64,000 nt of DNA from Desulfohalovibrio reitneri (GTDB lineage Bacteria > Desulfobacterota > Desulfovibrionia > Desulfovibrionales > Desulfovibrionaceae). Under the pieces are notes generated by a model that saw only the letters and a program-made list of their open reading frames with translations, was not told the origin of the DNA and ran no database searches. Position numbers and translations under genes: made by a program. Below, piece after piece: positions 10,807-38,336 of the stretch (its first letter is position 1; each line of letters opens with the position of its first letter). The stretch is taken from the NCBI RefSeq assembly GCF_000711295.1, contig NZ_JOMJ01000003.1, positions 2,119,501 to 2,183,500 on the forward strand, in the 5' to 3' direction.

Positions 10807-10935
10807 TGACGGGAAGGGTGGTCGCGCTCGTTAGGGACATTCGGCCGGACTTGCCACCCCCCAAGCGGAGGAGGTACAAACGCACCTTTGCCGCGCGTTA
10901 CCGCATGACGCAAATCAAGCTACACGAGTGAAAGA

Positions 10936-13688: not shown

Positions 13689-14761
13689 GCGTCCTGACGG
13701 TCGTCGGGGCCAGGCCCCAGTTCATCAAGGCCGCCCCGGTGCGGGCGGCCCTGGCCCGGGCGGGCGTGGCCGAGCGGCTGGTGCACACCGGCCAGCACTA
13801 CGACCACGCCATGTCCCAGGTCTTTTTCGACGAGCTGGACATCCCCCCGGCCGAGGCCAACCTGGCCGTGGGCTCCGGCGGCCACGGCGAGCAGACCGGC
13901 CGCATGCTGGCCCTCTTGGAGTCGGAGATGCAGGCGCACCGGCCCGGCGCGGTGTTGGTCTATGGCGACACCAACTCCACCCTGGCCGGGGCGCTGGCCG
14001 CTGCCAAGCTGCGCATCCCCGTGGCCCATGTGGAGGCGGGGCTGCGCTCCTTCAACCGCGACATGCCGGAGGAAATCAACCGCGTCCTCACCGACCACTG
14101 CTCCGACCTGCTCTTTTGCCCCACGGACGCGGCCGTGGCCAACCTGCGCGCCGAAGGCGTGACCGGGGGCGTGCACCAGGTGGGCGACACCATGTACGAC
14201 GTGGTGCTGGCATTCGAGAAACGTGCCAGGGAGAAGTCCACCATCCTCAAGCGTTTGGGCCTGGAGGAGAAGGGCTACCTGGCGGCCACCCTGCACCGCC
14301 CGGCCAACGTGGACGATCCGAAGAGGCTGCGGGCAGCGCTCGCCGCCCTGGCCGGGTGCGGCCGCCCGGTGGTGCTGCCGGTCCACCCCCGCACCCGCGC
14401 CCGCATGGAGGCCCTGCCCGGCTGGGACCCCGAGGGGTGGGGCGACCTGCGCTTCGTCGATCCCCTGGGCTACCTGGACATGCTGCGGCTGGTCTCGGGC
14501 GCGGCCAAGCTGGTCACGGACTCCGGCGGTCTGCAGAAGGAGGCCTACTTCCTGGGCGTGCCCTGCGTCACCGTGCGGGAGGAGACCGAATGGGTGGAGA
14601 CGGTGGAGGCGGGCTGGAACACCCTCGCGGGCGCGGCCCCGGACAGGCTGGCCCGGGCGGTGGCGGAGTTCGAACCGTCGGGCGAACGCCCCGCCCTGTA
14701 TGGCCGGGGCGATGCGGCGGACCGCATCGCGGACATCCTCAAGACGACCCTCGCGGCTTGA
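13685..14761 (+). CDS. Non-hydrolysing UDP-sugar 2-epimerase (WlbD/WecB family)
   Basis: A 358-residue epimerase starting SVLTVVGARPQFIKAAPVRAAL, the standard family opening. Other motifs are HTGQHYDHAMSQVFFDEL, VYGDTNSTLAGALAA, HVEAGLRSFNRDMPEEINR and a late TDSGGLQKEAYFLG segment. In the Wlb pathway the enzyme epimerises UDP-GlcNAc3NAcA to the manno form; a plain UDP-GlcNAc 2-epimerase is the alternative. Context next to WlbA, B and C homologues favours the former. No UDP-GlcNAc 6-dehydrogenase is present in this window, so that first step must be encoded elsewhere. Confidence 0.86.
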   Translation: MSVLTVVGARPQFIKAAPVRAALARAGVAERLVHTGQHYDHAMSQVFFDELDIPPAEANLAVGSGGHGEQTGRMLALLESEMQAHRPGAVLVYGDTNSTLAGALAAAKLRIPVAHVEAGLRSFNRDMPEEINRVLTDHCSDLLFCPTDAAVANLRAEGVTGGVHQVGDTMYDVVLAFEKRAREKSTILKRLGLEEKGYLAATLHRPANVDDPKRLRAALAALAGCGRPVVLPVHPRTRARMEALPGWDPEGWGDLRFVDPLGYLDMLRLVSGAAKLVTDSGGLQKEAYFLGVPCVTVREETEWVETVEAGWNTLAGAAPDRLARAVAEFEPSGERPALYGRGDAADRIADILKTTLAA

Positions 14762-14809
14762 ACGATGGTACGGTTGTGGCTGCGGGGGAAGGCTGGTAGC
14801 TAGGGCACC

Positions 14810-16714
14810 ATGTGCGGCATTGCGGGCATCTTCGACCCCTCCGGCGGCGACCTGGCCCCCCTGGCCGGGCGCATGGCCGACGCCCTGTCCTCGCGCGGCC
14901 CGGACGGACGCGGCGAGTGGGGCGGCGGCGCGGCCGCCCTGGGCCACCGCCGCCTGGCCATCCTCGATCTCTCCCAGGCCGGGGCGCAGCCCATGGCCTC
15001 GGCCTCCGGCCGCTTCCGCATCGCCTACAACGGCGAAATCTACAATTTCCGCGAACTGCGCGCCGAGCTTGAGGCGGAAGGCGTCGGCCCCTTCCGCACC
15101 GGCACGGACACCGAGGTGCTGCTGGAGGCGGTGGAGCACTGGGGGCTGGAGGACGCCCTGGGCCGCTGCATTGGCATGTTCGCCTTCGCCCTGTGGGACG
15201 AGCGGGTCAAGGAACTGGCCCTGGTGCGCGACCGCCTGGGCGTCAAGCCGCTCTTCTACGCCAAGGGGGAGGGCGGGCAGCTCCTCTTCGGCTCGGAGCT
15301 CAAGGCCCTGGCCGAGCATCCCGCCTTCAACCGGGAGATCGAGCCCGCCGCCCTGACCCTGTACCTGCGGCACAACTACGTGCCTGACCCCTACTGCATC
15401 CACCGGGACGCGGCCAAGCTGCCACCGGGCCACCTGCTCACAGCCCGGCTGGAGGGCGACAAGGTGGTCGTGGACGGCCCCCGCCCCTGGTGGTCCGCCC
15501 GCGAGGCGTGGCAACGCGGCCTGGAGAATCCCTTCTCCGGCGACGCGGCCGAGGCCGCCGGGGAAGTCCGGCGCATCCTGGAGGACGCGGTGCGCCTGCG
15601 GCTTGTGGCCGACGTGCCCGTGGGCGTGCTGCTCTCCGGCGGGGTGGACTCCTCCCTGGTGGCCGCGTTGGCCGCCCGCCACCACGCGGAACCCCTGCGC
15701 ACCTTCACCATCGGATTTTCCGACTCCGCCCTGGACGAGTCCGCCCACGCCCGGACCGTGGCCGAACACCTGGGCTGCCGCCACACCGAGCGGGTATTGG
15801 AGCCCTCCGCCGTGCGCGAGCTGGTGCCGGACCTGCCCAAGCTCTGGGACGAGCCCTTCGCCGACGCCTCCCAGGCCCCCACCCTGCTGGTCTCGCGGCT
15901 GGCGAGGGAGCACGTCACCGTGGCCCTGGCCGGGGACGGCGGGGACGAACTTTTCCTTGGCTACGCCCGCTATTTCTGGGCCCGCCATTTCGAGCACGTG
16001 GAGCGTTTTCCCCGCCCCCTGCGCCTGGCGGCCGCCACCCTGTGCAAGGCCTGGCCAGGGGCCTGCTTCAACCTGGCCGGGGAGCGGGGCCGCAAGCTGC
16101 GCTGGCGGGCCGGGCTGCTGGCCTCCCGTGACTTCAAGGCCTTCTACCGCGACCTGGTCTCCCACGAGCCCGAACCCGCCCGCTTGGTGCCCGGCGGCTC
16201 CGAGCCGCCCACCCCCCTGACCGACCCGGCCTGGAACCCCGCCGGGCTGGACCGCTACCGCCGTATGAGTTTGTGGGACGTGGGCACCTACCTGCCGGGC
16301 GACATCCTGACCAAGACCGACCGCGCCTCCATGGGCTGCGGCCTGGAGGCGCGGGTGCCGCTTCTGGACCACCGGCTGGTGGAGCTGGCCGCCTCCCTGC
16401 CGCCGGATTTGAACCTGGACGTGGAGGGCGGCGGCAAGGCCGTGCTCAAGGACGTGCTGGCCGACCTGCTGCCCCCGGAGCTGACCACCCGCCCCAAGCA
16501 GGGCTTCGGCGTGCCCCTGCCCGAGTGGCTGGGCGGGGAGCTGAAACCCTGGGCCGAGGACTTGCTTTCCCCGAACGCCCTGTCCCACGGCCTGCTGGAC
16601 ACCCAGGGGGTGCGCTCCCTGTGGTCCGGTTTCAAGGAGTGCGACACCTCCCGCGCCTCCCTGCTGTGGAACGTGCTCATGTTCCAGGCTTGGCTGGAGG
16701 AGCGCCGTGGCTGA
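14810..16714 (+). CDS. Asparagine synthase-like glutamine amidotransferase (copy 3)
   Basis: A 634-residue protein with Cys2 glutaminase domain (MCGIAGIFDP), PP-loop LLSGGVDSSLVAALAA and LAGDGGDELFLGYARY. It follows the 2-epimerase by 48 bp and overlaps the next glycosyltransferase by 8 bp. It resembles copy 2 more closely than copy 1, for example in the conserved RHNYxPxPxxIxxxAxKLxPG stretch, so those two may be the more recent duplicates. Directly behind a pathway for an amino-uronic acid, this is the best candidate for forming a uronamide (inference). Confidence 0.88.
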   Translation: MCGIAGIFDPSGGDLAPLAGRMADALSSRGPDGRGEWGGGAAALGHRRLAILDLSQAGAQPMASASGRFRIAYNGEIYNFRELRAELEAEGVGPFRTGTDTEVLLEAVEHWGLEDALGRCIGMFAFALWDERVKELALVRDRLGVKPLFYAKGEGGQLLFGSELKALAEHPAFNREIEPAALTLYLRHNYVPDPYCIHRDAAKLPPGHLLTARLEGDKVVVDGPRPWWSAREAWQRGLENPFSGDAAEAAGEVRRILEDAVRLRLVADVPVGVLLSGGVDSSLVAALAARHHAEPLRTFTIGFSDSALDESAHARTVAEHLGCRHTERVLEPSAVRELVPDLPKLWDEPFADASQAPTLLVSRLAREHVTVALAGDGGDELFLGYARYFWARHFEHVERFPRPLRLAAATLCKAWPGACFNLAGERGRKLRWRAGLLASRDFKAFYRDLVSHEPEPARLVPGGSEPPTPLTDPAWNPAGLDRYRRMSLWDVGTYLPGDILTKTDRASMGCGLEARVPLLDHRLVELAASLPPDLNLDVEGGGKAVLKDVLADLLPPELTTRPKQGFGVPLPEWLGGELKPWAEDLLSPNALSHGLLDTQGVRSLWSGFKECDTSRASLLWNVLMFQAWLEERRG

Positions 16715-17833
16715 GCCGGTGCGCGTCACGCACCTCATTACCTCCCTGGACCAGGGCGGGGCCGAGGCCTCCCTGGCCAAGCTGCTGGCCTCCATGGACC
16801 CGGGCGCTTTTTCCCACCGCGTCATCTGCCTGCTGCCGCCCGGCGTGGTGGCCGAGGACGTGCGGCGAGCCGGCGCACCCGTGGACAGCTTGCGCCTCTC
16901 CCGGGGCGTGGTGGCCCCGCTGGGCATGCCGCGCCTGCTGCGCCTGCTGCGGGCCGAGCGGCCGCACGTGCTGCAAACCTGGCTCTACCACGCCGACTTC
17001 CTTGGACTGGTGGCGGGGGAATGCTTCGAATCCCCGTGGCCTGGAACATCCGCTGCTCGGACATGGACCTGAGCAGGTACTCCCGCCTGACCCGCATGGT
17101 GGTGCGCTCCCTGGCCCTGCTTTCCTCCCGGCCGGGGGCCGTGGCCACGAACTCCCGCAAGGCGGTGGAGGTCCACCAGGGCCTCGGCTACGCGGACCGT
17201 GACTACGAGATCATCCCCGGCGGGTTCGACACCGGCAGATACCGTCCGGACCCCGAAGCCAGGGCGGCGGTGCGAGCCGAGTTGGGCGCGGCGGACGACG
17301 ACGTGCTGGTGGGCTGGATAGGCCGCGACGACCCCATGAAGGACCTGCCCTGTCTGGCTGCCGCATTCAACCGGGCCGCCGCTTCCAACCCCCGACTGCG
17401 GCTGGTGCTGGCAGGCAGCGGCCTCGGCCCGGACGACCCCGCAATCAACCTCTTCCAGGACAACGCCTCCCGCTGCAGCTTCCTCGGTCCACGCCGCGAC
17501 GTGGAGCGAATTTTGGCCGGCCTGGACGCCTTCGCCCTGTCCTCCCGCAGCGAAGGTCTGCCCAACGTGGTGGGCGAGGCCATGGCCGCCGAATTGCCCT
17601 GCGCCGTGACCGACGCCGGGGACACCGCCCGCCTGGTGGGCGATACCGGCCGGGTGGCCCCTGTGGGCGATGCCGAGGCCCTGGGCGACGCCCTGGCTTC
17701 CCTGGCCGCGCTCCCCGCGGATGAGCGCGCCGCCTTGGGCCGGGCCGCCAGACAACGCATCATCGACCGCTATTCCATCCAGGCCATGGTCGATGCTTAC
17801 GCCGCCCTGTACCGCCGTCTGGCCGGTCGCTGA
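16707..17833 (+). pseudogene. Glycosyltransferase family 4-like, broken by a one-base frameshift
   Basis: The first part (GTG 16707) reads VTHLITSLDQGGAEASLAKLL through WLYHADFLGLVAG, then runs out of frame to a stop at 17072. The frame that continues the family begins around 17021 (LRIPVAWNIRCSDMDLSRYS, then IPGGFDTGRYRPDPEA, GWIGRDDPMKD and a SSRSEGLPNVVGEAM donor box) and ends at 17833. Joining them needs one extra G in the G5 run at about 17015-17019. All GT-B motifs are otherwise intact, so this is either a recent mutation, a slippage-controlled gene or a sequencing error. Confidence 0.8.
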
Positions 17834-17897
17834 GCCCATCCGGACCGCTCCAGGCTGTTGCCATCCCCCAACCCCGGTGTTACATTTTCGTGTCGCC

Positions 17898-18476
17898 ATG
17901 GAAGCACAAGTCGTTGATTCCCACCCCGGGGCCACGCTTCTGAACAAGAAGCACCTCCAGGCCCTGCAGGACATCTACAAGTTCTCCGGCATCCGCCGCT
18001 ATCACGGCATGCTGCCGGAGAAACACGCCCTGCTCTACGACCCCGGCCTGCTTGACTACCTGGAGGAGAACTCCCTCATCGAGGAGGGCACGGTCATCGC
18101 CCGCTGCGGCTCCCAGTTGCGCGGCTACCGGCTGACCGACACCGCCCGCCGGGACCTGCGCAAGATGGGCCTGGACCTCACCGAGGAAGGGCAGATCGAG
18201 GAAATCCCCACGGACCAGGATTTCGGCGAGCTGACCAAGGAACAGATCAACATCATCCGCGACATCTACCACTTCATCCAGATCAAGAAGTTCAACGGCA
18301 TCGCCCCCAAGCACGAGGTCGAGGAATACGACAAACGGGACATGAAAATCCTCTACGACCTCGGCTACATCCTCTACATCAAGCTCAAGGGCAAGGCCGT
18401 GCGCTACACCAAGGGCTACATCCTCACCGACCAGGCCATCCGCCTGCTGCGCGCCCAGGGCCACATCCTCACCTAG
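17898..18476 (+). CDS. Uncharacterised protein with two tandem winged-helix-like repeats
   Basis: A 192-residue soluble protein without signal peptide or membrane segment. It contains two copies of the same unit, at about residues 18-95 and 112-190. Each has the form (I/L)xxDIYxFxxIxxxxGxxPxxxxxxYDxxxxxxLxxxxxI, then a G(Y)xLTDxAxRxLRxxGxxLT tail. The repeated helical pattern and basic C-terminal wing suggest a DNA- or protein-binding fold, but that is inference and I do not recognise a named family. The ATG at 17898 is used, not the longer open frame upstream. It is 7 bp from the next gene. Confidence 0.7.
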   Translation: MEAQVVDSHPGATLLNKKHLQALQDIYKFSGIRRYHGMLPEKHALLYDPGLLDYLEENSLIEEGTVIARCGSQLRGYRLTDTARRDLRKMGLDLTEEGQIEEIPTDQDFGELTKEQINIIRDIYHFIQIKKFNGIAPKHEVEEYDKRDMKILYDLGYILYIKLKGKAVRYTKGYILTDQAIRLLRAQGHILT

Positions 18477-18483
18477 CTTCCCC

Positions 18484-19835
18484 ATGGCAGCCCAGCGCCG
18501 CCGCCTGACCATCCTCGGCCTCGACGGCCTCTCCCTGCCCCTGGCCCGCCGCTTGGCGGAACTCCACCGCCTGCCCGCCGTGGCCAGCTTGGCCACCGCC
18601 CCCTCCGCCCGCACCGTCCCCTCGGAACTGCCCGAGCTCTCGCCCGTCAACTGGACCGCCCTGGCCACGGCCAGCGGGCCGGAAACCCACGGCGTGTACG
18701 GCTTCACCCGCCTGGACCCCACGGACTTCTCCCTCTCCCTGACCGACTTCTCCCACGTCCAGGCCCCCACCGTCTTCGACCGCCTGGGCGAGGCCGGGCT
18801 CACCTCCCGGGTGGTCAACCTGCCCAACACCTACCCGGCCCGGCCCATCCCCGGCATGCTGGTTTCCGGCTTCGTGGCCCCGAACCTGCACCGCGCCTGC
18901 CACCCGCCCATGCTGGCCGCCATGCTGGAACAGCGCGGCTACCTGCTGGAAGCCGACACCACCCGGGGCGCGGCCGAGCCGGACCACCTGCTGGCCCAGC
19001 TCCGCCAGACCATCGCCTCCCGCCGCTCCGCGCTGGACCTGCTCTGGGACGACCTGGACTGGGACTGTTTCTGCCTCGTCCTCACGGAAACCGACCGCCT
19101 TTTCCATTTCCTCCTCCCGGCCGCCCTGGACCCGGACAACCACCTCTTCGCCCCCATCACCGCCGTGCTGCGCCAATGGGACGAACTTGTGGGCGAGGTC
19201 CTCGAACGCCACCACGACCTGCCCGAACCCAAGCGCTTCATCACCGTGGCCGACCACGGCTTCACCGAGACCATCACCGAGGTGGACCTCAACGCCGTGC
19301 TCCGCGACATGGGCCTTTTGCGCCTGCGCCACGAACCGCGCGACGAGTGGGACACCACCGCCATCGACCCCGCCTCCCGCGCCTTCGCCCTGGACCCCTC
19401 CCGCGTCTACATCCACACCAGCGACCGCTTCCCCCACGGCCCCGTCCCCCGGCCGAGGCCCCCGCCATCGCCCGGGCCGTCAGCGACCGCCTGGCCGCCC
19501 TCCAGCACCACGGCCAGCCCGTCATCCAGCAGGTCCACACCCGCCACGACCTCTACAACGACGCCCCCCGCGCACCGGACCTGGTGGCCACGGCCCACCC
19601 CGGTTACGAGCTCAAGGCCAAGCTCGACCGCGTAGACATATTCTCCCTGCACGGCCGCTTCGGCTGCCACACCCCACACGACGCCATCTTCACCGACACA
19701 GGGCACGGTGAACCGGGAAGAATGCGGGAAGTGGGAGAGCTGGTGCTGGAATGGTTCGGGATTGGTTCGGGAAGTGAAGATTTCGCCCTTGCGGGCGACC
19801 AGGGCCTGCGCGGCCCTGGACCCGCGGCAAAGTAA
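18484..19835 (+). pseudogene. Alkaline-phosphatase superfamily / type I phosphodiesterase-like protein, frameshifted
   Basis: The N-terminal part has AP-superfamily metal-site motifs: TILGLDGLSLPLARRLAEL, the nucleophile region LSPVNWTALATA, LFHFLLP and TVADHGFTETITEV. The frame breaks in the C5 run at 19446-19450. One extra C restores the reading into ...PAEAPAIARAVSDRLAAL and on to VDIFSLHGRFGCHTPHDAIF. The restored frame then reads straight into repeat R1 and uses a TAA inside its third hairpin (19833-19835), so the last 20 or so residues are repeat-derived. Probable role: hydrolysis of a phosphodiester on a glycan or nucleotide. Confidence 0.72.
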
Positions 19836-21964: not shown

Positions 21965-22957
21965 TTACGTATTGCCCCCAGCGAACCAGGCCACGGTGCG
22001 GCGCACCGCCCCGGGCAAGTCGGTGCGGGCTTGCCAGCCGAGCATGCGCCGGGCCTTGGAGGTGTCGGCGTAGTTGCGCATGACGTCGCCCTGCCGCTTT
22101 TCGCCGTGGCGCACGGTGAAGCCGGTTATGCCGGCGCGTTCAAGCTCCGGCACCAGGACGTCCATCAATTCCAGGATGGAGGTTTCCCGGGCAGTGGCGA
22201 TCTGGAAGACTTCACCGCCCACCCCGGGGGCGTAGGCCGCCCGCAGGATGGCCTCGATGAGGTCGTCCACGTACACGAAATCCCGCGTCTGGGTGCCGTC
22301 GCCGAAAATCTCCAGCTCCTCCCCGGCCATGGCCTTGCGGATGAACTTGGCCACCACGCTGGACTTGCGGCCGGACAGCGGCCCCAGCACGTTGGAGAAG
22401 CGCAGGGCCACGGTCTCCACCCCGAAGGTGTTGTAATAGGCCGAGCAGTAGCCCTCCCCCGCCAGCTTGGAGGCCCCGTAGGGCGAGACCGGCCGTGGCG
22501 GGATGTCCTCGCGGATGGGCGGCTCCACCTCCCCGGCGGGCGCGCCGGAGGAGGCGAAGACGAAGCGAGGCACGCCGCCCGCCCGCGCCGCCTCCAGATA
22601 GTTGAGGGTGCCGATGACGTTGGCCCGGCAGTCCATGCGGGGGTTCTCCACCGACGGGGCCACGCCGGTGTTGGCCGCCAGATGGACAACAACCTCCATG
22701 CCCTCGGCGGCGCGCACGGCCAGGTCCTCGTCCAGGATGTCGCCGGGGACGAGCTCCACCTTGCCCGGGCGTGGCTGGCCCGGCTCAGCCGCCTCCACGA
22801 AGTCGCAGGCCAGGGCCAGGTCCTCGCGGGTGCCCACGCTGAGGTTGTCCACCACGCGGATGAAGGGCTCCCCCTCGGCCAGCAGGCGGCGGATGAGGTT
22901 GCGGCCGATGAAGCCGCAGCCCCCGGTGATGAGCCAGTTGGCGCGCTCTAGGACCAT
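21965..22957 (-). CDS. NAD-dependent sugar epimerase/dehydratase
   Basis: A 330-residue extended short-chain dehydrogenase/reductase. Motifs are WLITGGCGFIGRNLIRRLL, VVHLAANTGVAPSVENP, FASSGAPAGE, and SPYGASKLAGEGYC with the YxxxK pair. The segment RDFVYVDDLIEAI is typical of UDP-glucose 4-epimerase-like enzymes. The start is the ATG at 22957; the upstream open frame is a shadow of the next gene. It overlaps the UDP-sulfoquinovose synthase gene by 10 bp, so the three genes from 25213 down to 21965 form one operon. Substrate not determined. Confidence 0.82.
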   Translation of the reverse strand: MVLERANWLITGGCGFIGRNLIRRLLAEGEPFIRVVDNLSVGTREDLALACDFVEAAEPGQPRPGKVELVPGDILDEDLAVRAAEGMEVVVHLAANTGVAPSVENPRMDCRANVIGTLNYLEAARAGGVPRFVFASSGAPAGEVEPPIREDIPPRPVSPYGASKLAGEGYCSAYYNTFGVETVALRFSNVLGPLSGRKSSVVAKFIRKAMAGEELEIFGDGTQTRDFVYVDDLIEAILRAAYAPGVGGEVFQIATARETSILELMDVLVPELERAGITGFTVRHGEKRQGDVMRNYADTSKARRMLGWQARTDLPGAVRRTVAWFAGGNT

Positions 22958-24096
22958 TTCACCCTCGGCAGAATCTTGCGGTTGTCGATGCGGTCGCGGT
23001 TGCGCAGCACCCGCTCCAGCATTTCGCCCAGCACGTCCTCGGTCATGTAGTGCGGCTTGAGCCCCAGATCCAGCAGGCCGGAATGGGCGGCGTTGTAGTA
23101 GTGCTCCTCGGCTTCCTTGCGCGGGTTGGGGATGGACTTCACGGCCACGTCCAGGCTGTGAAGCCGTCCCGCGGCCTGGATGCGCTCGGCCAGGTCCAGC
23201 ACGGTGAACTGCTCGGTGAACTGGTTGAAGATGCGCAGCTCGCCCTTGTCTGCCGGGCTGTTCATGGCCAGCTCCACGCACTGCAGCGTGTCCTTGATGT
23301 TCAGGTAGCCGCGCTCCTGCCCGCCTTTGCCGTACACGGTCAGGGGCACCCCGGCCGCGGCCTGTACCAGGAAGCGGTTGACCACGGTGCCGAAGATGTC
23401 GTCGTAATTGAAATAGGGCGCCAGGCGCGGGTGCAGGTCGGCCTCGTCCGTGGAGAGGCCGTAGACCGGACCCTGCATGAGGTCGGTCACGCGCAGGCCG
23501 TGGGTGCGCACGTAGAACCACAAGAGGTCCGTGTCCTGGATTTTGGTGGTGTGATAGAGGCTGGCGGCCTGGCGGGGGTAGAGAAAGGTGTCGCGGCGGC
23601 CCTTGTGCTCGATCTCAAGCCAGCCTTCCTCGATGTCGATGTCCGGGGTGCCGTACTCGCCCATGGTGCCCAGCTTGACGATGTGGCAGTCCGGCGCGTG
23701 CCTGAGCACAGCCCAGACGAGGTTGAAGGTGGTGCCCAGGTTGTTGTCCAGGGTCAGCTTGGCCTGCTCGAAGCCCATCATGGAGTACGGCGCGCTGGGC
23801 TGCTCAGCGTAGTGGATGACCGCCTCGGGGCGGTGTTCCTCCACCAGCCACTCCATGAAGCGCATGTCCGCGCAGTCGCCCACGGCGACCCGCACCTGGC
23901 TGCCGGAGGCCTCCTGAAAGAGTTCCGCCCGCTCCGCCAGGGTGGGCACGGGCAGCAGCGGCTCGGAGTCTGTCTCCAGGCAGATGGTGCGGCGCAGGTA
24001 GTTGTCCGCGGCCAGGACGTCGTGCCCCTTGGCCGCCAGGGCCATGGCCGTGGGCCAGCCCAGGTAGCCGTCGCCGCCGAGGATGAGGACGCGCAT
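22948..24096 (-). CDS. UDP-sulfoquinovose synthase (SQD1/SqdB-like)
   Basis: A 382-residue protein that closely follows plant and bacterial UDP-sulfoquinovose synthases: VLILGGDGYLGWPTAMAL at the start, then EQPSAPYSMMG, VKLGTMGEYGTPDIDIEEG holding the catalytic Thr, QAASLYHTTKIQDT holding Tyr-xxx-Lys, LTVYGKGGQERGYLNIKDT, and PNPRKEAEEHYYN. The family converts UDP-glucose and sulfite to UDP-sulfoquinovose. The start is the ATG at 24096, 1 bp after the upstream stop. No sulfolipid synthase (SqdX) is visible here, so the sugar may go to a glycan or to lipids made elsewhere. Confidence 0.9.
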   Translation of the reverse strand: MRVLILGGDGYLGWPTAMALAAKGHDVLAADNYLRRTICLETDSEPLLPVPTLAERAELFQEASGSQVRVAVGDCADMRFMEWLVEEHRPEAVIHYAEQPSAPYSMMGFEQAKLTLDNNLGTTFNLVWAVLRHAPDCHIVKLGTMGEYGTPDIDIEEGWLEIEHKGRRDTFLYPRQAASLYHTTKIQDTDLLWFYVRTHGLRVTDLMQGPVYGLSTDEADLHPRLAPYFNYDDIFGTVVNRFLVQAAAGVPLTVYGKGGQERGYLNIKDTLQCVELAMNSPADKGELRIFNQFTEQFTVLDLAERIQAAGRLHSLDVAVKSIPNPRKEAEEHYYNAAHSGLLDLGLKPHYMTEDVLGEMLERVLRNRDRIDNRKILPRVKWS

Positions 24097-24097
24097 G

Positions 24098-25213
24098 TCA
24101 GTTCTCCCGGCCTTCGGCCAGTTCTTCCTTGTCCCCCGGCCAGTAGCGGCGGGCGGGGTGGTCCACCTCCCGCTCCGCCTCGGCCAGCAGGTCGTTGTCC
24201 AGCAGGAAGCGGCGCAGCTCCTCCTGGTCCAGGGGGGTCTCGTTCTGGGAGTTGTAGGGGTTGTCCACCGTCTCGGAGAGCAGACCCGGGTGGTCGTACT
24301 CGATGTCCTTGAACAGCCCGCGGAAGGCGGGTAGCACCGCGAAGTAATCCTCAAGCTCCACGGCCCGGCGGGTCTCCTCGTGGCTCATGAGTTCCTCGTA
24401 CATCTTCTCGCCCGGCTTCACCCCGATGGTCTCGATGCCCACGTCCTCCGGGTCGTGCCCGAAGCGCGGGGCCAGCTCGCGGATCATGACCTCGGCCAGG
24501 TCGATGATGCGGATGACCGGCATCTTGGTGACGAAGATTTCCCCGCCCCTGGCCAGGGTGGCGGAGTCCACCACCAGCCGCACGGCCTGCTCCTCGCTCA
24601 TGATGAAGCGGGTCATTTCCGGGTCGGTGAGGGTCACGGGGCCGCCCCGGCGTATCTGCTCGCTGAAGATGGGGATGACCGAGCCGCGCGAGCCCAGCAC
24701 GTTGCCGAAGCGGGTGGAGGCGAAGACCGGGCGACCGCCTCGGCCGGAAAGGTTGGCAGCGGTCATGAGCCGCTCCCCCATGAGCTTGGAGGTGCCCATG
24801 ACGTTGGTGGGGTTCACGGCCTTGTCCGATGAGGTGAAGATCACCCGCTCCACGCCGCAGCGCAGGGCGGCGTGAACCACGTTCTGCACGCCGATGATGT
24901 TGGTCTGGGTGGCCTCGAAGGGCGAGTGCTCGCACATGACCACGTGCTTGAAGGCGGCGGTGTGGAAGACCACGTCCGCGCCCTCCATGACCCGGCCCAA
25001 CGTGTCGCGGTCGCGCACGTCGGCCAGACGGAAGGAGACCCCCGGCCGGGCGGCGTGCCGCTGCTCGCTGAAGAACAGCTCCGACTCGTTGTTGTCGATG
25101 CCCACCAGCTCGGCCACCTTGTGGTCGCGGAGCAGATGCTCCACCAGCCTGGCCCCGATGGTGCCGCAGGCCCCGGTGACCAGCACCCGCTTTTCGGCAA
25201 TCGATTCGCTCAT
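24098..25213 (-). CDS. UDP-sugar 4,6-dehydratase of the CapD/PseB type
   Basis: A 371-residue soluble member of the polysaccharide-biosynthesis dehydratase family. VLVTGACGTIGARLVEHLL is the NAD motif, FHTAAFKHVVMCEHSPFEA is the family signature, and SSDKAVNPTNVMGTSK has Met in place of the usual YxxxK tyrosine, as in WbpM-type enzymes. FASTRFGNVLGSRGSVIP is also typical. The ATG at 25213 has a GGGGAGAA box. It is the first gene of the operon, ahead of the UDP-sulfoquinovose synthase. Likely product: a UDP-4-keto-6-deoxy-HexNAc. Confidence 0.85.
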   Translation of the reverse strand: MSESIAEKRVLVTGACGTIGARLVEHLLRDHKVAELVGIDNNESELFFSEQRHAARPGVSFRLADVRDRDTLGRVMEGADVVFHTAAFKHVVMCEHSPFEATQTNIIGVQNVVHAALRCGVERVIFTSSDKAVNPTNVMGTSKLMGERLMTAANLSGRGGRPVFASTRFGNVLGSRGSVIPIFSEQIRRGGPVTLTDPEMTRFIMSEEQAVRLVVDSATLARGGEIFVTKMPVIRIIDLAEVMIRELAPRFGHDPEDVGIETIGVKPGEKMYEELMSHEETRRAVELEDYFAVLPAFRGLFKDIEYDHPGLLSETVDNPYNSQNETPLDQEELRRFLLDNDLLAEAEREVDHPARRYWPGDKEELAEGREN

Positions 25214-26125: not shown

Positions 26126-27460
26126 TCAGTACTCCACATCCAGGTCGATGCCCAGCCGCTCCCACTGTTCCGCGGCTTCCGCTTCGGCCTTCTCGAGTTC
26201 CTTGCCTTCCAGGGGCTCGATGACCAGGGCCTCGGCCACCACCTGCCAGATGTACTTCACCTCGTAGTCGCAGCCTTCGTAGTATTTGGGCAGCCGCTTC
26301 ATGATCTGGTCGCGGCAGTTGGAGCAGCCAACGACCACCACGTCCGCGCCGCTGCGCTTGATCTGCTCCACCTTGAAGCGGCCGTGGTAGGCGGCCTGCT
26401 CCTCGAAGGGCATGGGCCACATGCCGCCGCCCGCGCCGCAGCAGAAGTTGGCCATGCGGTTTGGCACCAGGTCAACGTACTCGTCCACGCACTGCGAGAG
26501 AATCCAGCGCGGCTCCTCGAAGAAGGCCTGACCGTAGTGGCGCATGAGTTCCCGGCCGTGCTTGCAGGAGTCGTGAAAGGTGAAGCGTTTGCCCGCGTGG
26601 ACGCTCTTGTCCAGCGTGATGCGCCCCTGCTCGATGATCTCCTTGAGGTACTCGTAGAGGTAGATGAATTCCACTTCCGAGGTCTCCGGGCTCTCCTGAA
26701 GGCAGTACTTCAGCCCGGTGCGGCAGCCGTAGGAGCCGCCCCCGCAGTCGGGCATGATCATGCGCTTGATGCCGTGCTGGCGCATGTAGTCGATCTTGCG
26801 GCGGGCCAGCTTGCGGGTGCCCTCGTAGTTGCCGGTGAACAAGGCCCAGTCCACAGCCTCCCAGCCGGTGGAGGGAACGGTCCAGTTCTCCCGGGCGGCG
26901 TAGAAGATCTTCCACCACCAGTACTGGTCCTCAAAGTCGCCGTAGACTTCCTTGGAGTTGGGGAAGAAAAGGATTTCCGCCCCGTCCTTGTCCACGGGCA
27001 CGTAGAAGCCGGGGCACTCCTCCTCGGCCATTTCGGCGCCCAGCTCGGCCATGCCCTGCAGGTAGTCCTCCAGGGGGATGCCGAGGTTGTTGCCGGTGTC
27101 CAGGTTCTGCTGCGCCCCCTTGTGCAGGGTGCCGGGCACCTTGTCGCGGTCGCGCAGGTGCTTGAGGTGCAGCATGAGCGGGGCGATGTCCACGCCCGCC
27201 GGGCAGTTCTGGGTGCAGCGGCCGCAGCCGGTGCACAGCCAGACGTAGTTGGAGTCCACCACTTCCTGGAGCATGCCCAGGGAAAGCATGCGCAGCACCT
27301 TGCGGGTGTTCCAGTCCTCGTATCCCGGGGCGCAGGAGGTGGGGCAGCCGCTCACGCAGCTGCCGCAGGTCATGCAGGCGCTGAGGTCGAACTTGTCCAG
27401 GTACTCGCGCACTTCCCCCGGCAGTTCCCGGGGGTGGATGATCTCGGCGGCTTCGGTCAT
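26126..27460 (-). CDS. HdrD-like Fe-S oxidoreductase
   Basis: A 444-residue protein. Two 4Fe-4S motifs near the N-terminus (CMTCGSCVSGCP, then CTGCGRCTQNCP) are followed by cysteine-rich CCG-type motifs: DCGGGSYGCRTG, FHDSCKHGREL, FCCGAGGGMW and VVGCSNCRDQ. This combines features of HdrC and HdrB, as in HdrD-like subunits that bind a non-cubane cluster and reduce disulfides or pass electrons. It is the last gene of the redox operon, separated from Usp by 55 bp. The physiological acceptor is unknown. Confidence 0.83.
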   Translation of the reverse strand: MTEAAEIIHPRELPGEVREYLDKFDLSACMTCGSCVSGCPTSCAPGYEDWNTRKVLRMLSLGMLQEVVDSNYVWLCTGCGRCTQNCPAGVDIAPLMLHLKHLRDRDKVPGTLHKGAQQNLDTGNNLGIPLEDYLQGMAELGAEMAEEECPGFYVPVDKDGAEILFFPNSKEVYGDFEDQYWWWKIFYAARENWTVPSTGWEAVDWALFTGNYEGTRKLARRKIDYMRQHGIKRMIMPDCGGGSYGCRTGLKYCLQESPETSEVEFIYLYEYLKEIIEQGRITLDKSVHAGKRFTFHDSCKHGRELMRHYGQAFFEEPRWILSQCVDEYVDLVPNRMANFCCGAGGGMWPMPFEEQAAYHGRFKVEQIKRSGADVVVVGCSNCRDQIMKRLPKYYEGCDYEVKYIWQVVAEALVIEPLEGKELEKAEAEAAEQWERLGIDLDVEY

Positions 27461-27515
27461 GTCTGCCTCCGGCGCGGAGCGCGGCTCCCAGCGCCGCGCT
27501 CCGCTCGGGTGGGGC

Positions 27516-28451
27516 TCAGGCCTGGGTTTCGGCCTGGGCCGTGGTTTCGGCGACCGCGCCGGTCTGGTCGTACATCAGGCCGCAGCGCAGGTCGAAGTGC
27601 TTGTTCACGCTCATGGTGGGGCAGGCGGAGTTGAGGGCCACCTGGATGACGGTGGAGCCCAGAAGCGCCTTCTCGGGGTCCACCTCCTTGGAGTGGTGGG
27701 CCATGATGACAAGCCCGGCCTTGTTGATGCGGGCGGCCTTGAGGATTTCCGTTGAGGGCTTGCCCTCGGTGCACTCGTAGTCCACCTTCTCGATGCCCTT
27801 CAGCCGCTCGGCGAATTCCTCGCGCATGCGGTCGCGGTTCTCCTGGATGATGGCGTCCATCTGCTCCTGGGGCGCGCCGGACTCCTGCACGTGGAGGATG
27901 ATGAGGCGGGACTTGTAGTGGCGGGCCATCTGGCCGCCGTAGTTCACGGCGCACTCCGCGGGCTTGGAGAAGTCGGTGCAGACCAGGATGGTGTCGAAGC
28001 TGCACTCCGGCTTGCCCACCTCGGAGGTGACGACCATCACCGGGCAGGGCGCCCGCTGGCTGACCCGCTCAAGGGTGGACCCGGCCATGCCCCACATCTT
28101 GGAGCGGCGCTCGGTGTACTCCTTGGTGTGCGGGCCCATGACCACCAGATCGGCCTTCTTCTGCCGCACCAGCCGCAGGATCTCGTTGTAGGGGATGCCC
28201 GCCTTGACCAGGATTTCCAGATTGGGCACGCCCTCCAGCTTCTCCTTGTAGTAGGTTTCGATGTTCTCCCGCAGGCGCTGGCATTCGCCGGAGGCCTCCA
28301 GGTGTTCCATGTCGCCCCAGCCGCGCTCGATGCCCGTGACGTAGGTCAGGTAGAGCTTGGAGTCGAAGCGGCGGGCGTAGGCCAGGGCCGCGTCCACGGC
28401 GCACTCGCAGATTTCCGAGGGCGTCACGGCGAGAATGATGTCCTTGAACAT
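27516..28451 (-). CDS. Universal stress protein with two Usp domains
   Basis: A 311-residue tandem Usp protein. Domain 1 (about 1-145) starts FKDIILAVTPSEICECAVDAAL and has the ATP-loop region VVMGPHTKEY then GMAGSTLERV. Domain 2 (about 150-295) has FDTILVCTDFSKPAECAVNYG, VIMAHHSKEV and LLGSTVIQVAL. Such proteins bind ATP or AMP and affect stress survival. Its place between HdrB and an HdrD-like gene suggests a link to the state of this electron-transfer complex (inference). Confidence 0.88.
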   Translation of the reverse strand: MFKDIILAVTPSEICECAVDAALAYARRFDSKLYLTYVTGIERGWGDMEHLEASGECQRLRENIETYYKEKLEGVPNLEILVKAGIPYNEILRLVRQKKADLVVMGPHTKEYTERRSKMWGMAGSTLERVSQRAPCPVMVVTSEVGKPECSFDTILVCTDFSKPAECAVNYGGQMARHYKSRLIILHVQESGAPQEQMDAIIQENRDRMREEFAERLKGIEKVDYECTEGKPSTEILKAARINKAGLVIMAHHSKEVDPEKALLGSTVIQVALNSACPTMSVNKHFDLRCGLMYDQTGAVAETTAQAETQA

Positions 28452-28467
28452 GGCGTACCTCCCTGGG

Positions 28468-29370
28468 TTACGCGTTGACCACGGGTTCGTCTTTCTGCGC
28501 GGGTTCCGGCAGACGGCCGGCGGCCAAGCCGGGCTCCGCGCGCATGTTCTTGTCCAGCAGCAGCCGCCTGGGCGCCAAGTCCAGGGCCAGCCCCATGAGC
28601 TGGGGCAGGTAGAGGATGCTCAGGGGCTTCTCCCGGCCCGCCAGGGCGGACCGGCGGGCGGATTCCAGGTTCATCTGGCACAGGGGGCAGACCGTGACCA
28701 CCACGTCCGCGTCCCCAGCCTGGGCCAGTATCTCATCCACCCGGTCCAGGGCCGCCTGACGGTGCGTGACCAAAAGGGACGCGCCGCAGCAGCGGTTGCC
28801 GGCACCCCAGGGGACCACCTCTCCGCCCATGGCCTCCACAAGCGGCTCCATGGACACGGGGTGCTCGGGATCGTCGAACACGGCGTAGGGGCGCAGGGCC
28901 TGGCAGCCGTAGTAGGGGGCCACGCGCAGGCCGTTGAGGGATCGCTTGACGCGGCCGGTAAAGGCCTCCAGCAGGTCGGAGGAGAGCACGTCCAGCAGGT
29001 GTCGCACCCGCACCTCCCCTGACAGTTCCAGCCCTTCTCCGGCCAGGCCGCTGTTAATGCGGTCCAGCATGGCGTGATCGTGGCGGGTCTTTTCGGCCAC
29101 CCGCCGCAGGTTCAGGTAGCAGGCGGAGCAGGGCACCAGGACATCCCAGCCGGGCTCGTCGCGGGCGGCCAGGGCCAGGTTGCGGGCGGGCAGCAGCAGC
29201 CCCATGCTCTCGGAGACCGCGTCCGCGGCCGAGGCCCCGCAGCAGGTCCAGTCCGGGATGTCCTTGAGTTCGGCCCCCAGCACCTCCAGCACGGCCCGGG
29301 TGGAGGCGTCGTACTCCACCGCGCTCTCCTTGAGGGAACAGCCGGGGTAGTAAGCGTAGGTCATGGTCAT
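28468..29370 (-). CDS. hdrB: Heterodisulfide reductase subunit B-like
   Basis: About 300 residues with the two CCG motifs that bind the non-cubane 4Fe-4S cluster: CCGASAADAVSESMG with PCSACYLNLRR, and APYYGCQALRP with NRCCGASLLVTHR and CPLCQMNLE. It opens YAYYPGCSLKESAVEYD, as in HdrB. The first ATG (29370) overlaps the HdrC stop; a second ATG at 29364 has better spacing (8 bp) to the AGGAG box and may be the true start. It should carry the disulfide-reducing site of the complex. Confidence 0.87.
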   Translation of the reverse strand: MTMTYAYYPGCSLKESAVEYDASTRAVLEVLGAELKDIPDWTCCGASAADAVSESMGLLLPARNLALAARDEPGWDVLVPCSACYLNLRRVAEKTRHDHAMLDRINSGLAGEGLELSGEVRVRHLLDVLSSDLLEAFTGRVKRSLNGLRVAPYYGCQALRPYAVFDDPEHPVSMEPLVEAMGGEVVPWGAGNRCCGASLLVTHRQAALDRVDEILAQAGDADVVVTVCPLCQMNLESARRSALAGREKPLSILYLPQLMGLALDLAPRRLLLDKNMRAEPGLAAGRLPEPAQKDEPVVNA

Positions 29371-29900
29371 GACTCCTTCTCCTCTTGGGCGGCGAAGAGG
29401 GTGTCGAGCCTCCCCCGCCGCGCCGTGGACGGGGGATGGAGCTTGCCCTTGGCCAGCATCTTCAGCCCCATGGGCAGGTAGCTCAGTCCCAGGGCCGGGG
29501 AGCGGCGGGCCAGCAGGTAGCGGGTCATGAGGGCGCTCTCCTGCACCCGGCCGTAGCCCCGCACGTTGTCCATGAAGGCGCGGTAGAAGGCGGAGGACTC
29601 CTTGGCGCGGGGGGCGTTGGCCGCCTGGGCGGCGCGCTTGAGCGCGGCGATGGTATCGGTGAGGGGCAGGCCGCGCGGGCAGCGCAGGGTGCAGGCGTAG
29701 CAGGCGGAACACAGCCAAAAGGTGCGGGAGGCGAACAGCTCGTCCCACAGTCCCAGCTGCACCAGCCGCCACATGCGGCGCGGGGTGATGTCCATGTCCG
29801 GCGCGTTGACGCAGGAGGCGGAGCAGGTGCCGCACTGCATGCAGGCGGCCATGGTCTCCCGGATCAGGGCCAGGGGGTCGGTGCGGGCCGCGGTGTTCAT
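29367..29900 (-). CDS. hdrC: Heterodisulfide reductase subunit C-like
   Basis: A 177-residue protein with two 4Fe-4S sites (CMQCGTCSASC, then CSACYACTLRCP). It should carry electrons between the HdrA-type flavoprotein and HdrB. The ATG at 29900 overlaps the stop of the double HdrA, and its own stop overlaps HdrB, so the A-C-B genes are coupled. The C-terminal third is basic and not conserved enough to assign. Confidence 0.86.
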   Translation of the reverse strand: MNTAARTDPLALIRETMAACMQCGTCSASCVNAPDMDITPRRMWRLVQLGLWDELFASRTFWLCSACYACTLRCPRGLPLTDTIAALKRAAQAANAPRAKESSAFYRAFMDNVRGYGRVQESALMTRYLLARRSPALGLSYLPMGLKMLAKGKLHPPSTARRGRLDTLFAAQEEKES

Positions 29901-32900
29901 TTGCAGGTCTCCCCTCGGCCCTGGGCCAGGGCCGCGTCGATGGTTCCCATGACCTGGCGGTCGGTGAAGCCGCGCACGAAGCTGGCGCTGTTGGGGCAGA
30001 CGGCGGCGCAGGAGCCGCAGCCCTGGCAGAGCAGGTCGTCCACCACAACCGTGCCGCTTCGCATGTCCAGACGCCGGGCACCGTAGGGGCAGACCTCGAT
30101 ACAGCGGCCGCAGCGGGAGCAGAGGCTGTGGCGCACCCGCGCGGTGACGCGGGAGCCGGCCAGCCGGGTCTCGGAGAGGATGCGCAGGGCGCGCTGGGCG
30201 GCCGCCTTGGCCGAGGCCACGGTGTCGCGCAGCCCGCCCGGGGCGCGGGCCACTCCGCAGTAGAAGACCCCTTGCTTGAGGCTGTCCACAGGCCGCCATT
30301 TGCTCTCGGCCTCGCGGAAGAAGCCGTCCTGGTCCAATTCCACCCCGAACACCTCGGCGGTCTCCTCGGCCTCGCCCGCCTCCAGGCCGATGGACAGCAC
30401 CAGCAGGTCCGGGTCCATGGCCACGGGGGCGGCCAGGATGGGGTCGGTGTAGGTCAGCCTGGGGCGGCCGTCCTCGAACTCCACCCGGGGCTTGTCGTCC
30501 TGGGTGTAGGGCACGAAGAGCACTCCGGCCTCACGGGCGCGGGTGTAGTACTCCTCCATGAAGCCGGGGGTCATGATGTCACGGTAGAGAACGACCACGG
30601 GCAGGTCGGGCCGCCGCTTCTTGAGCAGCAGGGCGTTCTTCAGGGCCTGCGGGCAGCAGACGCGGCTGCAGTAGTTGCGGTTCTCGTCGCGGGAGCGCCA
30701 GCACTGGATCATGGCCACGCCGGAGAGCCCCGCGAGATCCAGTTCGCCCGAGGCCAGCACCTCCTCCAGGCGGCGCTGGGTCATGACCTTCTTGTGCACG
30801 TCCAGCCCGAAGTCGTGCACCTTCACCTCCCGTCCTCCGGTGGCCAGGATGGTTGCGCCGTGCTCCAGGGGGTAGGTGCCATCGGGGGTGGAGATGAGAC
30901 TCATGAAGTGTCCGGCCCGGCCCGTGGACAGGGCCACCCGCGCCTCAAGGAAAACCCGGATGCGGGGGTGCTTCTCCACCTGTTCAACCAGGTTCTCCAC
31001 GAAGCGCACCGGGTCGTCGCCGGTGAGGGTGGTGTGCAGCTTGTTGGCCAGCCCGCCCAGCCGCTCGGCCTCTTCCACCAGGCAGACGTTGTAGCCGTGG
31101 TCGGCCACGCCCAGGGCGGCGGTCATGCCAGCCACCCCGCCGCCCACCACCAGCGCCTCGCGGGAGACCTCCACCACCGGCTCCACCGGCTCGGGGTCCT
31201 GGTCCAAGAGCCGCACGGCGGCCATGGTCAGGCCGGAGGCCAGCCTGTCGGCCATGGCGGCGGGGTCGCGGGGTTCATCGCTCCCAGCGGCCATGAGCGG
31301 GGAGTAGACGTCAACCACGTCCATGAGGGCGGGGTTGAGATCGGTCTTTTCCGACAACTCGCGCAGCTTGGGCACGTAGGCGTAGGGCATGCACGCGCCG
31401 ATGAGCAGCCGGTTGGGCTTGTGCTCGTCCATCAACTCGGTGATGCGCTCCCAGCCCTCGGCGGTGCAACAGCGGGGCACGGACTCCACCGAGGCCACGC
31501 CGTGTACGGTTCCCAGCCGCTCCGCCAGGCGTCCCATGTCGGCCTCCTCCTCCAGCAGGGGGCAGGCGGTGCACAGGGCGGCCAGCACGCGCGGCCGCTC
31601 GCGGCGCACGTCGCGGTACTCGGGACGTGGTTCGGGCTTGCGCTCCTTGAGGGGGGCGTAGATGTTGATCAGCCGCGAGGCCTCCAGGGCGGCCGCGCCG
31701 GAGAGGATCATGGACTCGGAGATGTCCGCGGGCCAGGCGAAGCTGCCCGCGGCCATGACGCCCATGCGCGAGGTGCGAGAGGGGGTCAGGTTGGCGGTCT
31801 GGCAGAAGCCCCATTCGTTGGTCTCGATGCCGGTCACGCGGGCCAGCTCCTCCATGCCTCTGGGCGGCCGCGCGCCCACGGCCAGCACGGCCATGTCGAA
31901 GCTCTCGGTGACGAGCTTGCCGGTCTCGTCCACGTACTGCATGCGCACCTGGCCGGGGTCGTCCATGGAGGGCAGCAGGGTGTGGATGCGGGCGCGCACG
32001 AAGCGCACGCCGTCGCGATCCCGGGCCTGGTCGCAGTAGCGCTGGAAGTCCTTCCCGTGGGTGCGCACGTCCATGTAGAAGACGGTGGCTTCGGGTTCCT
32101 CCAGGCCAAGCTCCCGCGCCCGTTTCCTGACCAGCCGCGCCTCCTTGAGGGAGGCCAGGCAGCAGAAGGAGGAGCAGAAGCCGCCCTGCCGCTGCACGTC
32201 GCGCGAGCCCACGCACTGCAACCAGGCGATGCGCTTCACCGGGCGGCCGTCGCGGGGGCGGGGCAGGCCGCCGTGGCCGTCGCCGCGCCGCCCGGCGTCC
32301 AGGCCGGTGCCGCTCAGCCAGCGTTCCATCTCCATGGAGGTCAGCACCGCGGGGTGCTGGCCGTAGAGGTAGAAGTCGCCCAGGGCGGCCGGGTCTGTGG
32401 CGGGGTCGAAGAGCTGGAAGCCAGCGGCCAGGATGACCGAGGCCACGTCGATGTCCACCAGCTCGTCGCTGACCAGCCGCATGAACCGCTTTTCCAGGTC
32501 CGGCACCAGCTTGGCCGGGTCTTCGGGGACGACCATGACCTCGGCCGCGCCCTTGTCCAGCATCTCCTTGGCGGCTTCGCCGTTCGCAGTGGCCGCGTCC
32601 GGGGCCAGGAGGACGACAGGGGTGGCCGGAGCCAGCTCCAAGGCCCGGCCGATGATGCGCTCGGCGTCGCCCCTGGGCAGGTCCAGGGAGGCCAGAACCA
32701 GCCCCGCGCCGCCGGACTCCAGGGCGGCCACCGCCTCTTCGGCGTTCGCGGCCGAATGCACCGGGAACTCCCGCTTGCGCAGTCCCGCGGCCAGGGGTTC
32801 GGCCGCTTCGGGGTCGGGGTGGGCCAGCAGCACGGGAAATTCCGCCCGTTTTTCCAGTTGGAAGTCCACCGCGCCGGTGGGGCAGGCTTCGACGCACTCC

Positions 32901-33403: not shown

Positions 33404-33413
33404 CTGGGCCTCC

Positions 33414-34565: not shown

Positions 34566-34581
34566 ATCGGGCTCCTTGCGC

Positions 34582-35058
34582 TCAGGCTTGCGGTTGGGCG
34601 GTTTCCACGGCCTCGGCCGGCGGGGCGGCGGGCGTTTCCCTGCGCCCGGGGGCCAGCGGGTTGGGGCCGATGCGGCGGATGTCCTCGACCAGCTCGTTGA
34701 CCACATCGGCGAACTCGTTGCCCTCGGACGCGCCCACCCAGGTCAGCTTCAGCCGTCCGGGGTCCATGCCGTAGGTGGTCAGCACTTCCTTGAGCAAGCG
34801 CACCCGGCGACGCGCCTTGTAGTTGCCGTTGATGTAGTGGCAGTCCCCCGGATGGCAGCCGCTGATGAGCACCCCGTCCGCCCCGGCCAACAGGGCCTTG
34901 AGGACGTACTTGGGGTCCACCATGCCGGTGCACATCATGCGGATGAGCCGGACGTTGGGCTTCTGCTTCAGGCGCGATGTCCCGGCCAGGTCGGCCGCGG
35001 TGTAGGTGCACCAGTTGCAGACGAAGGCGATGATCACGGGGTCGAAGGTGGCTGGCAT
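34582..35058 (-). CDS. mvhD: MvhD-like 2Fe-2S electron-transfer subunit
   Basis: A 158-residue protein with the full MvhD pattern: IAFVCNWCTYTAADLAG, RLIRMMCTGMVDPKYVL, and ISGCHPGDCHYINGNYKA, which supply the 2Fe-2S cysteines. MvhD homologues carry electrons to HdrA in Mvh- and formate-dehydrogenase-linked complexes. The ATG at 35058 is 2 bp after the HdrA stop. The last 25 residues are a Pro/Ala-rich tail. No hydrogenase or Flx genes are present here, so the electron donor is encoded elsewhere. Confidence 0.88.
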   Translation of the reverse strand: MPATFDPVIIAFVCNWCTYTAADLAGTSRLKQKPNVRLIRMMCTGMVDPKYVLKALLAGADGVLISGCHPGDCHYINGNYKARRRVRLLKEVLTTYGMDPGRLKLTWVGASEGNEFADVVNELVEDIRRIGPNPLAPGRRETPAAPPAEAVETAQPQA

Positions 35059-35060
35059 GG

Positions 35061-37112: not shown

Positions 37113-37114
37113 GG

Positions 37115-38266: not shown

Positions 38267-38320
38267 GGGCGCTTCTCCCGGTTGCCGTGGGAGGGATGGG
38301 CCTTCGCCTGACTCGTCAAA

Positions 38321-38336
38321 AACAAAAGGCGTGCCC
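38321..38336 (-). promoter_or_regulatory. Possible sigma-54 promoter of the hdr operon
   Basis: On the - strand the sequence reads GGGCACGCCTTTTGTT. This fits the -24/-12 layout TGGCAC-N5-TTGCW except that the -12 GC is GT. It lies about 55 bp before the FrhB-like start and next to a gene for a sigma-54 activator. The -12 mismatch makes this a weak call. Confidence 0.4.

Follow-up and report, generated by a model that had tools for sequence, protein, structure and literature searches.

A UDP-sulfoquinovose-synthase-like protein and its CapD-like partner: a probable cassette for a sulfonated cell-surface sugar in Desulfohalovibrio reitneri and other bacteria

We analysed a 64,000-nucleotide stretch of the Desulfohalovibrio reitneri genome (contig NZ_JOMJ01000003.1, positions 2,119,501 to 2,183,500; hereafter the window) that carries an operon of three intact genes. 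These encode a homologue of the uridine diphosphate (UDP)-sulfoquinovose synthase SQD1 (P0001), a CapD-like protein (P0002) and an epimerase-type short-chain dehydrogenase/reductase (SDR), which we call EPI. The cassette recurs in many bacterial phyla, and its probable product is a sulfonated sugar destined for the cell surface, not for a membrane lipid. Our specific reading, to which we give a probability of about 0.6, is that the three genes together supply a cell-surface glycan, and not a sulfolipid, with a nucleotide-activated hexose sulfonated at C6. Judged by its sequence, P0001 appears to be something other than an ordinary UDP-sulfoquinovose synthase and belongs to a clade of its own, SQD1-A. 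What deserves attention is SQD1-A together with P0002, EPI being an accessory, rather than a plant-type SQD1 that has come by chance to lie in a sugar operon.

In the mechanism we propose, SQD1-A would carry out a reaction of the UDP-sulfoquinovose-synthase type on UDP-glucose or a UDP-N-acetylhexosamine: oxidation at C4, dependent on nicotinamide adenine dinucleotide, and loss of the C6 hydroxyl, then addition of sulfite at C6 and reduction of C4. P0002 would act in the same pathway, either by providing the intermediate for sulfonation by SQD1-A or by making a second sugar that invariably accompanies the sulfo-sugar, and EPI, where present, would act on one of the cassette's sugars. The sulfite would come from dissimilatory sulfate metabolism here and, in several other carriers, probably from an enzyme of the phosphoadenosine phosphosulfate (PAPS) reductase type encoded nearby. 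Both the sulfite chemistry and the glycan destination are predictions.

Photosynthetic organisms are known to carry a sulfonated sugar in their sulfolipid, and archaea to carry one in N-glycans (PMC4388408). Among the titles listed from Creative Commons-licensed PMC papers we found no bacterial SQD1-CapD system and no sulfoquinovosamine. If our reading is true, C-sulfonated glycans would be common on bacterial surfaces and a non-photosynthetic source of organosulfur, and the annotation of SQD1 homologues would change, as many 'UDP-sulfoquinovose synthase' genes would not predict sulfolipid. The cassette also names a testable partner enzyme, P0002, and poses a concrete question, the substrate of SQD1-A.

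The SQD1-A clade and its active site

An earlier note on this DNA, made from its letters, had described a 382-residue SQD1 homologue, and this was borne out. The frame is intact and contains the three motifs quoted there (LGTMGEYGTP, YHTTK and YGKGGQERGYL); residues 2-381 align with Arabidopsis SQD1 (PDB 1qrr, E 4.6e-126), to which the protein is 48% identical in the multiple alignment. P0001 is the sole close SQD1 homologue in its own genome. Its top NCBIfam model is NF041015, UDP-sulfoquinovose synthase (full length, E 5.9e-129), whose equivalog cut-off it misses (430 vs 575 bits). The miss is weak evidence, because that cut-off passes just one of 14 control genomes while 13 of the 14 match the model, Synechococcus elongatus and Sulfolobus acidocaldarius among them.

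Within the order, SQD1 homologues (E <= 1e-40) occur in 36 of 297 genomes; we take these 297 to be the same set in the SQD1, P0002 and EPI searches, the listed handles and coordinates being in agreement. The close form, SQD1-A, is found in 25 genomes at 55-70% identity, and a distant form, group B, in 11 at 37-42%. Group B shows 55-61% identity to the SqdB-like protein encoded on pSymB of Sinorhizobium meliloti, and a glycosyltransferase gene comes after the gene for that protein; an S. meliloti query for the SqdD-like glycosyltransferase (GT8) matched no protein at the group-B loci of the order.

A maximum-likelihood tree of 66 sequences, built with 31 of the 105 SQD1-A sequences and with Agl3 and cyanobacterial SqdB left out of both tree and alignment, places SQD1-A in one group (support 100/100). 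This group includes two viral-contig sequences, L033 and L034, so that our SQD1-A label does not coincide exactly with one side of a branch. Plant SQD1, a second Rubrobacter copy and SqdB-like sequences form another group (98/83). Beyond the order, we scanned genome contigs for relatives and kept the best 80 of at least 577 loci; these 80 are 61-73% identical and come from Thermodesulfobacteriota, Chloroflexota, Actinomycetota, several proteobacterial classes, Bacteroidota, Planctomycetota and others. So broad a range of taxa suggests that SQD1-A has spread across phyla by transfer. No SQD1 match was found in 50,697 phage records, and it is IMG/VR viral contigs that carry homologues; L033 and L034, whose homologues fall inside the clade, are two such contigs, and the gene preceding the homologue in L034 matches the phage-associated glycosyltransferase family phrog_14945.

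The resemblance to plant SQD1 that the earlier note had seen almost throughout the catalytic regions holds for the motifs and catalytic residues, and fails at one position. Thr144, Met145, Tyr181, Lys185 and His95 are kept in all 105 SQD1-A sequences and Glu147 in 103, and these match residues tested in Agl3, the S. acidocaldarius enzyme (PMC4388408). The catalytic pattern [ST]MG...Yx3K (taken from PMC8987622) is likewise present in 105 of 105. At the position of SQD1 Arg101, however, P0001 has Pro100, and so, with Pro, do all 105. The arginine, part of an EQ-R-SAP segment, is present in all 11 group-B sequences and six of eight further ones; Pro also stands there in all 13 viral-contig homologues and in two homologues from haloarchaea. 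In Agl3, changing this arginine to Ala abolishes activity (PMC4388408). With the catalytic residues kept and the arginine lost, the chemistry of SQD1-A should be conserved and its sugar pocket should differ, and UDP-sulfoquinovose as its exact product is putative.

The Pro aligns with Lys84 of Escherichia coli GalE, and Tyr333 of SQD1-A with GalE Tyr299, as in plant SQD1; EPI has Asn there. We assume for GalE Tyr299 the rule that Tyr disfavours N-acetyl sugars and Asn tolerates them. The two haloarchaeal homologues, on plasmids (L176, 4001-7202; L178, 4001-7170), are distant, at 34-35% identity; besides carrying Pro at the arginine site they are without the TMG motif, and two further SDR genes follow each.

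The loss of the arginine in every SQD1-A sequence would also fit a simple dehydratase (5,6- or 4,6-), or an epimerase, that works in a deoxysugar pathway and no longer sulfonates, and the Pro-bearing haloarchaeal proteins that lack TMG as well point the same way. We consider this unlikely given that TMG, Tyr, Lys and His are conserved, and that PAPS-reductase-family genes lie near SQD1-A in nine of 49 genomes (see below).

Compared with known systems, SQD1-A shares with SQD1/SqdB of plants, cyanobacteria and rhizobia full-length homology, the fold family and TMG...Yx3K. It differs in its separate clade, the Arg101-to-Pro change and further clade-specific residues at 33, 183, 190, 207 and 210, and in being linked to P0002 and EPI instead of a sulfolipid glycosyltransferase. 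Agl3, which makes UDP-sulfoquinovose for the S-layer N-glycan, resembles the proposed cassette in having a glycan and not a lipid as its target, free sulfite as donor and a GEYGTP segment (PMC4388408). SQD1-A is unlike Agl3 in being bacterial and in lacking the essential arginine; the available part of PMC4388408 describes no dehydratase partner for Agl3 such as the cassette has in P0002.

A nearly obligate CapD-like partner

P0002 belongs to PF02719 (Polysacc_synt_2, E 3e-93), and its nearest solved structure is 6bwc, 'CapD' (284 bits; the next scores 220.5), which we take to be Pen, a UDP-N-acetylglucosamine (UDP-GlcNAc) 5,6-dehydratase. In its motif SSDKAVNPTNVMGTSK, Met replaces the usual catalytic Tyr, and the protein has the DK...M x3 K pattern of PglF/WbpM, retaining UDP-GlcNAc 4,6-dehydratases of PF02719 without the catalytic Tyr (PMC8987622). 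A search expression for DK...M fits 75 of 90 partner sequences, the other 15 being unmatched and not inspected. The earlier note had called the product a CapD/PseB-like dehydratase; the PF02719 gene stands, and PseB does not, as P0002 scores 266 bits against the TIGR03589 cut-off of 407.75 and has Met, not Tyr. P0002 differs from Pen, PglF and WbpM in forming its own subfamily, found in the order only with SQD1-A.

P0002 is a nearly obligate partner of SQD1-A and not a casual neighbour. In the order, its orthologues (>=52% identity, E <= 1e-110; the next matches reach <=48%, E >= 1e-67) occur in 24 of 297 genomes, all within the 25 that carry SQD1-A: 24 of 25 against 0 of 272 others (Fisher 1.8e-34, ignoring relatedness). 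The single SQD1-A genome without an orthologue, G023, has SQD1-A at a contig edge. For 18 of the order's 26 SQD1-A genes the partner is on the same strand no more than 250 bases away, and for three it is within 1.4 kb; three more share a contig with it at a greater distance, and two lie on contigs that lack it. In other phyla, a P0002 relative (E <= 1e-70, 47-64% identity) was found in 46 of 49 SQD1-A genomes, and the partner adjoins 44 of 50 SQD1-A genes (<=250 bp, same strand), 33 times upstream and 11 downstream. None was found in G330, G344 or G332, the first two of which have SQD1-A at a contig edge.

Across 104 SQD1-A loci, coarse clustering of neighbours put a CapD-like protein at 75, EPI at 40 and any other cluster at six or fewer; a direct search (>=45% identity, <=8 kb) raised the CapD-like count to 90. 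No CapD-like neighbour was seen at 11 group-B loci or 13 viral-contig loci, some of which have short flanks. We considered whether the partner is just an ordinary inhabitant of polysaccharide clusters, since homologues at 38-48% identity occur in many genomes without SQD1-A. This is ruled out by exclusivity at the ortholog level, where identity drops from 52% to 48% and below while E rises from 1e-110 to 1e-66, and is countered too by the absence of a partner beside the group-B copies. No CapD-SQD1 gene fusion was found in L111, L136 or L157.

EPI is less tightly tied. Its orthologues (E <= 1e-75) occur in 17 genomes of the order, 16 of them with SQD1-A (16 of 25 against 1 of 272 others), and its best solved relatives include UDP-glucose and UDP-GlcNAc 4-epimerases. 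The epimerase that the earlier note had reported is a real gene, though it lies outside the 22948-25213 interval in which it had been placed (Table 1).

How the two enzymes might divide the work can be pictured in two ways, neither of which we hold more than tentatively. In one, a specific form of the cassette reading, P0002 would dehydrate UDP-GlcNAc, and the 4-keto-5,6-ene so formed would receive sulfite from SQD1-A. The outcome would be UDP-N-acetyl-sulfoquinovosamine or, via EPI, its 4-epimer, which in some species would enter a sialic-acid-type pathway. The exclusivity of the partner, despite its 38-48% homologues elsewhere, is consistent with such a sequence, as is the Pro in 105 of 105, though Pro stands there in the viral-contig and haloarchaeal homologues too. 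By our GalE rule the Asn of EPI would tolerate N-acetyl sugars, and Tyr333 of SQD1-A would disfavour them. The closeness of P0002 to 6bwc also fits. Pen makes UDP-6-deoxy-GlcNAc-5,6-ene (PMC8987622), which is the acetamido counterpart of the UDP-Glc-5,6-ene formed by Agl3 when sulfite is absent (PMC4388408), and this analogy lends appeal to a two-step path towards a sulfonated amino sugar. P0002, however, has the DK...M of the 4,6-dehydratases where Pen has Tyr, and once a 4,6-dehydratase has finished, its product bears a methyl group at C6 and cannot take sulfite.

Two of the 104 loci (L121, 6886-13922; L161, 6863-13189) have the CapD-like partner and SQD1-A followed by NeuB-, NeuC-, 2-hydroxyacid-dehydrogenase- and cytidine monophosphate (CMP)-transferase-like genes. 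The order of the genes differs between them; L121 NeuC is over its NCBIfam cut-off, and L121 NeuB and CMP-transferase are below theirs. The NeuB-, NeuC- and CMP-transferase-like genes after SQD1-A favour the sequential route, but such genes alone suffice for ordinary sialic acid. It is tempting to speculate, and we hold this to be rather doubtful, that P0002 and SQD1-A form a new two-enzyme route from UDP-GlcNAc and sulfite to UDP-N-acetyl-sulfoquinovosamine (the galacto form with EPI), a surface-glycan building block, and that in L121 and L161 it would supply the precursor of a 9-sulfonated sialic-acid-like sugar.

In the other picture, SQD1-A would make UDP-sulfoquinovose from UDP-glucose while P0002, with EPI as 4-reductase or epimerase, made a 6-deoxy-N-acetylhexosamine, both entering one glycan unit. 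The DK...M pattern of PglF/WbpM in 75 of 90 partners favours this (PMC8987622), as do the Tyr333 and TMGEYG segment that SQD1-A keeps in common with plant SQD1 and Agl3. Two independent sugars should sometimes separate, however, and P0002 orthologues occur in none of 272 genomes without SQD1-A; at the coarse level of our clustering no shared glycosyltransferase is conserved at the loci, and Arg101 is lost. We regard parallel synthesis, too, as possible at best.

Sulfite supply and the fate of the sugar

The D. reitneri genome encodes dsrA (627.8 bits, over the cut-off). The earlier note had argued that a sulfate reducer has abundant sulfite; its sulfite-metabolising part is supported by this gene, whereas sulfate reduction is not the general reason for SQD1-A, because the same SQD1-A/CapD-like pair occurs in Rhodobacterales, Chloroflexota, Rubrobacter, Gallionella, Rhodanobacter and others.

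For carriers that are mostly not sulfate reducers we turned to the 49 genomes of other phyla, out of 50 picked from the best 80 of at least 577 loci after seven CysH neighbours had been seen, all seven of which are included. They hold 81 matches to PF01507, the PAPS-reductase family. Nine of the 49 genomes have such a gene no more than 5 kb from SQD1-A (0.25 expected by chance) and 12 have one no more than 10 kb away (0.46 expected); in two it comes straight after SQD1-A. Proteins of L092, L143, L150 and L125 pass the NCBIfam PAPS-reductase cut-off, those of L110, L158 and L104 fall below it, and L099, L108, L114 and L149 have a PF01507 match; L125, whose CysH is about 6.6 kb from SQD1-A, lies outside the 49-genome set. 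Judged by length only, a G305 neighbour at 7.6 kb and a second G306 neighbour may be CysD. On a Pelagovum pacificum plasmid (L177, 4001-5907), an SqdB-like gene is directly followed by an annotated phosphoadenylyl-sulfate reductase gene, so the link with sulfite genes is not unique to SQD1-A.

A glycan is a likelier destination for the product than sulfolipid. As the earlier note had held, the gene is not encoded with a sulfolipid synthase: the conserved neighbours are two nucleotide-sugar enzymes, and coarse clustering found no single glycosyltransferase conserved beside SQD1-A at the 104 loci. Nor did we find SqdX/SQD2 or SqdD linked to SQD1-A in the window. The earlier note's proposal of a sulfonated sugar for a glycan is supported as well by dsrA, by second SQD1 copies and by a surface-glycan-like cluster that adjoins the operon on the + strand (window 105-18476). 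This cluster contains glycosyltransferase family 4 (GT4) genes, three asparagine-synthase-type amidotransferases, two DegT aminotransferases, WecB, WbqC, a radical SAM/SPASM protein, a GFO/IDH/MocA-hexapeptide fusion and other glycan genes.

The second copies bear directly on a sulfolipid reading, in which SQD1-A would supply UDP-sulfoquinovose for sulfoquinovosyl diacylglycerol and a GT4 encoded at another place in the genome would serve as SqdX. In nine of the 49 genomes, that of Rhodanobacter sp. DHG33 among them, there is a further, non-A homologue (40-48% identity); the four of these included in the tree group with plant SQD1 or with SqdB and not with SQD1-A. In Rubrobacter marinus the plant-like second copy is followed by a GT4 gene, presumably SqdX, and its SQD1-A has a CapD-like partner and EPI. 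With this GT4 as a proxy query for SqdX, two GT4 proteins of D. reitneri are 34% and 32% identical at best, which would suit a sulfolipid role; but the better is the GT4 half of an 850-aa protein, and of the 19 genomes, among 120 of the order, in which the other was found, just three carry SQD1-A. An SqdD-like query gave no match in the D. reitneri genome in a search without a positive control. Together with the lack of a conserved glycosyltransferase, these points make a sulfolipid role for SQD1-A improbable.

Several observations weigh against the cassette reading itself. The catalysis of SQD1-A is predicted from sequence, and because the arginine is lost throughout the clade, one cannot take for granted that it acts on UDP-glucose. 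In three genomes of the order 17-67 kb separate the partner from SQD1-A, and in G332, from the set of other phyla, none was found although its SQD1-A is not at a contig edge. On sulfite supply, besides the way in which the 49 genomes were chosen, three of the nine close genes are divergent CysH-like (two were scanned, both below the PAPS-reductase cut-off), and PF01507 also covers CysD. Finally, the GT4 paralogues of D. reitneri leave a sulfolipid glycosyltransferase possible.

Gene order and neighbouring genes

The three genes lie on the - strand in the order P0002, P0001, EPI (Table 1). A single base separates P0002 from SQD1-A, and the SQD1-A stop and EPI overlap by 10 bases. P0002 has an alternative start at an upstream ATG (25249), which would add 12 residues.

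Table 1. Genes of the cassette, with positions in the window.
Gene	Position	Strand	Features
CapD-like partner (P0002)	24098-25213	-	371 aa, Polysacc_synt_2, SSDKAVNPTNVMGTSK; first gene of the operon
SQD1-A (P0001), UDP-sulfoquinovose-synthase-like SDR	22948-24096	-	382 aa, TMG...YHTTK active site, Pro100
EPI, epimerase-type SDR	21965-22957	-	330 aa; accessory member of the cassette

At 26126-38491 on the - strand we noted by eye a series of genes for iron-sulfur proteins and HdrA-like flavoproteins, of a type known from sulfate reducers. On the + strand, a PF01663 phosphodiesterase-family frame at 18484-19835 has a Pro/Ser-rich tail; the frames 19176-19835 and 19187-19711 overlap this frame, possibly owing to a frameshift or sequencing error.

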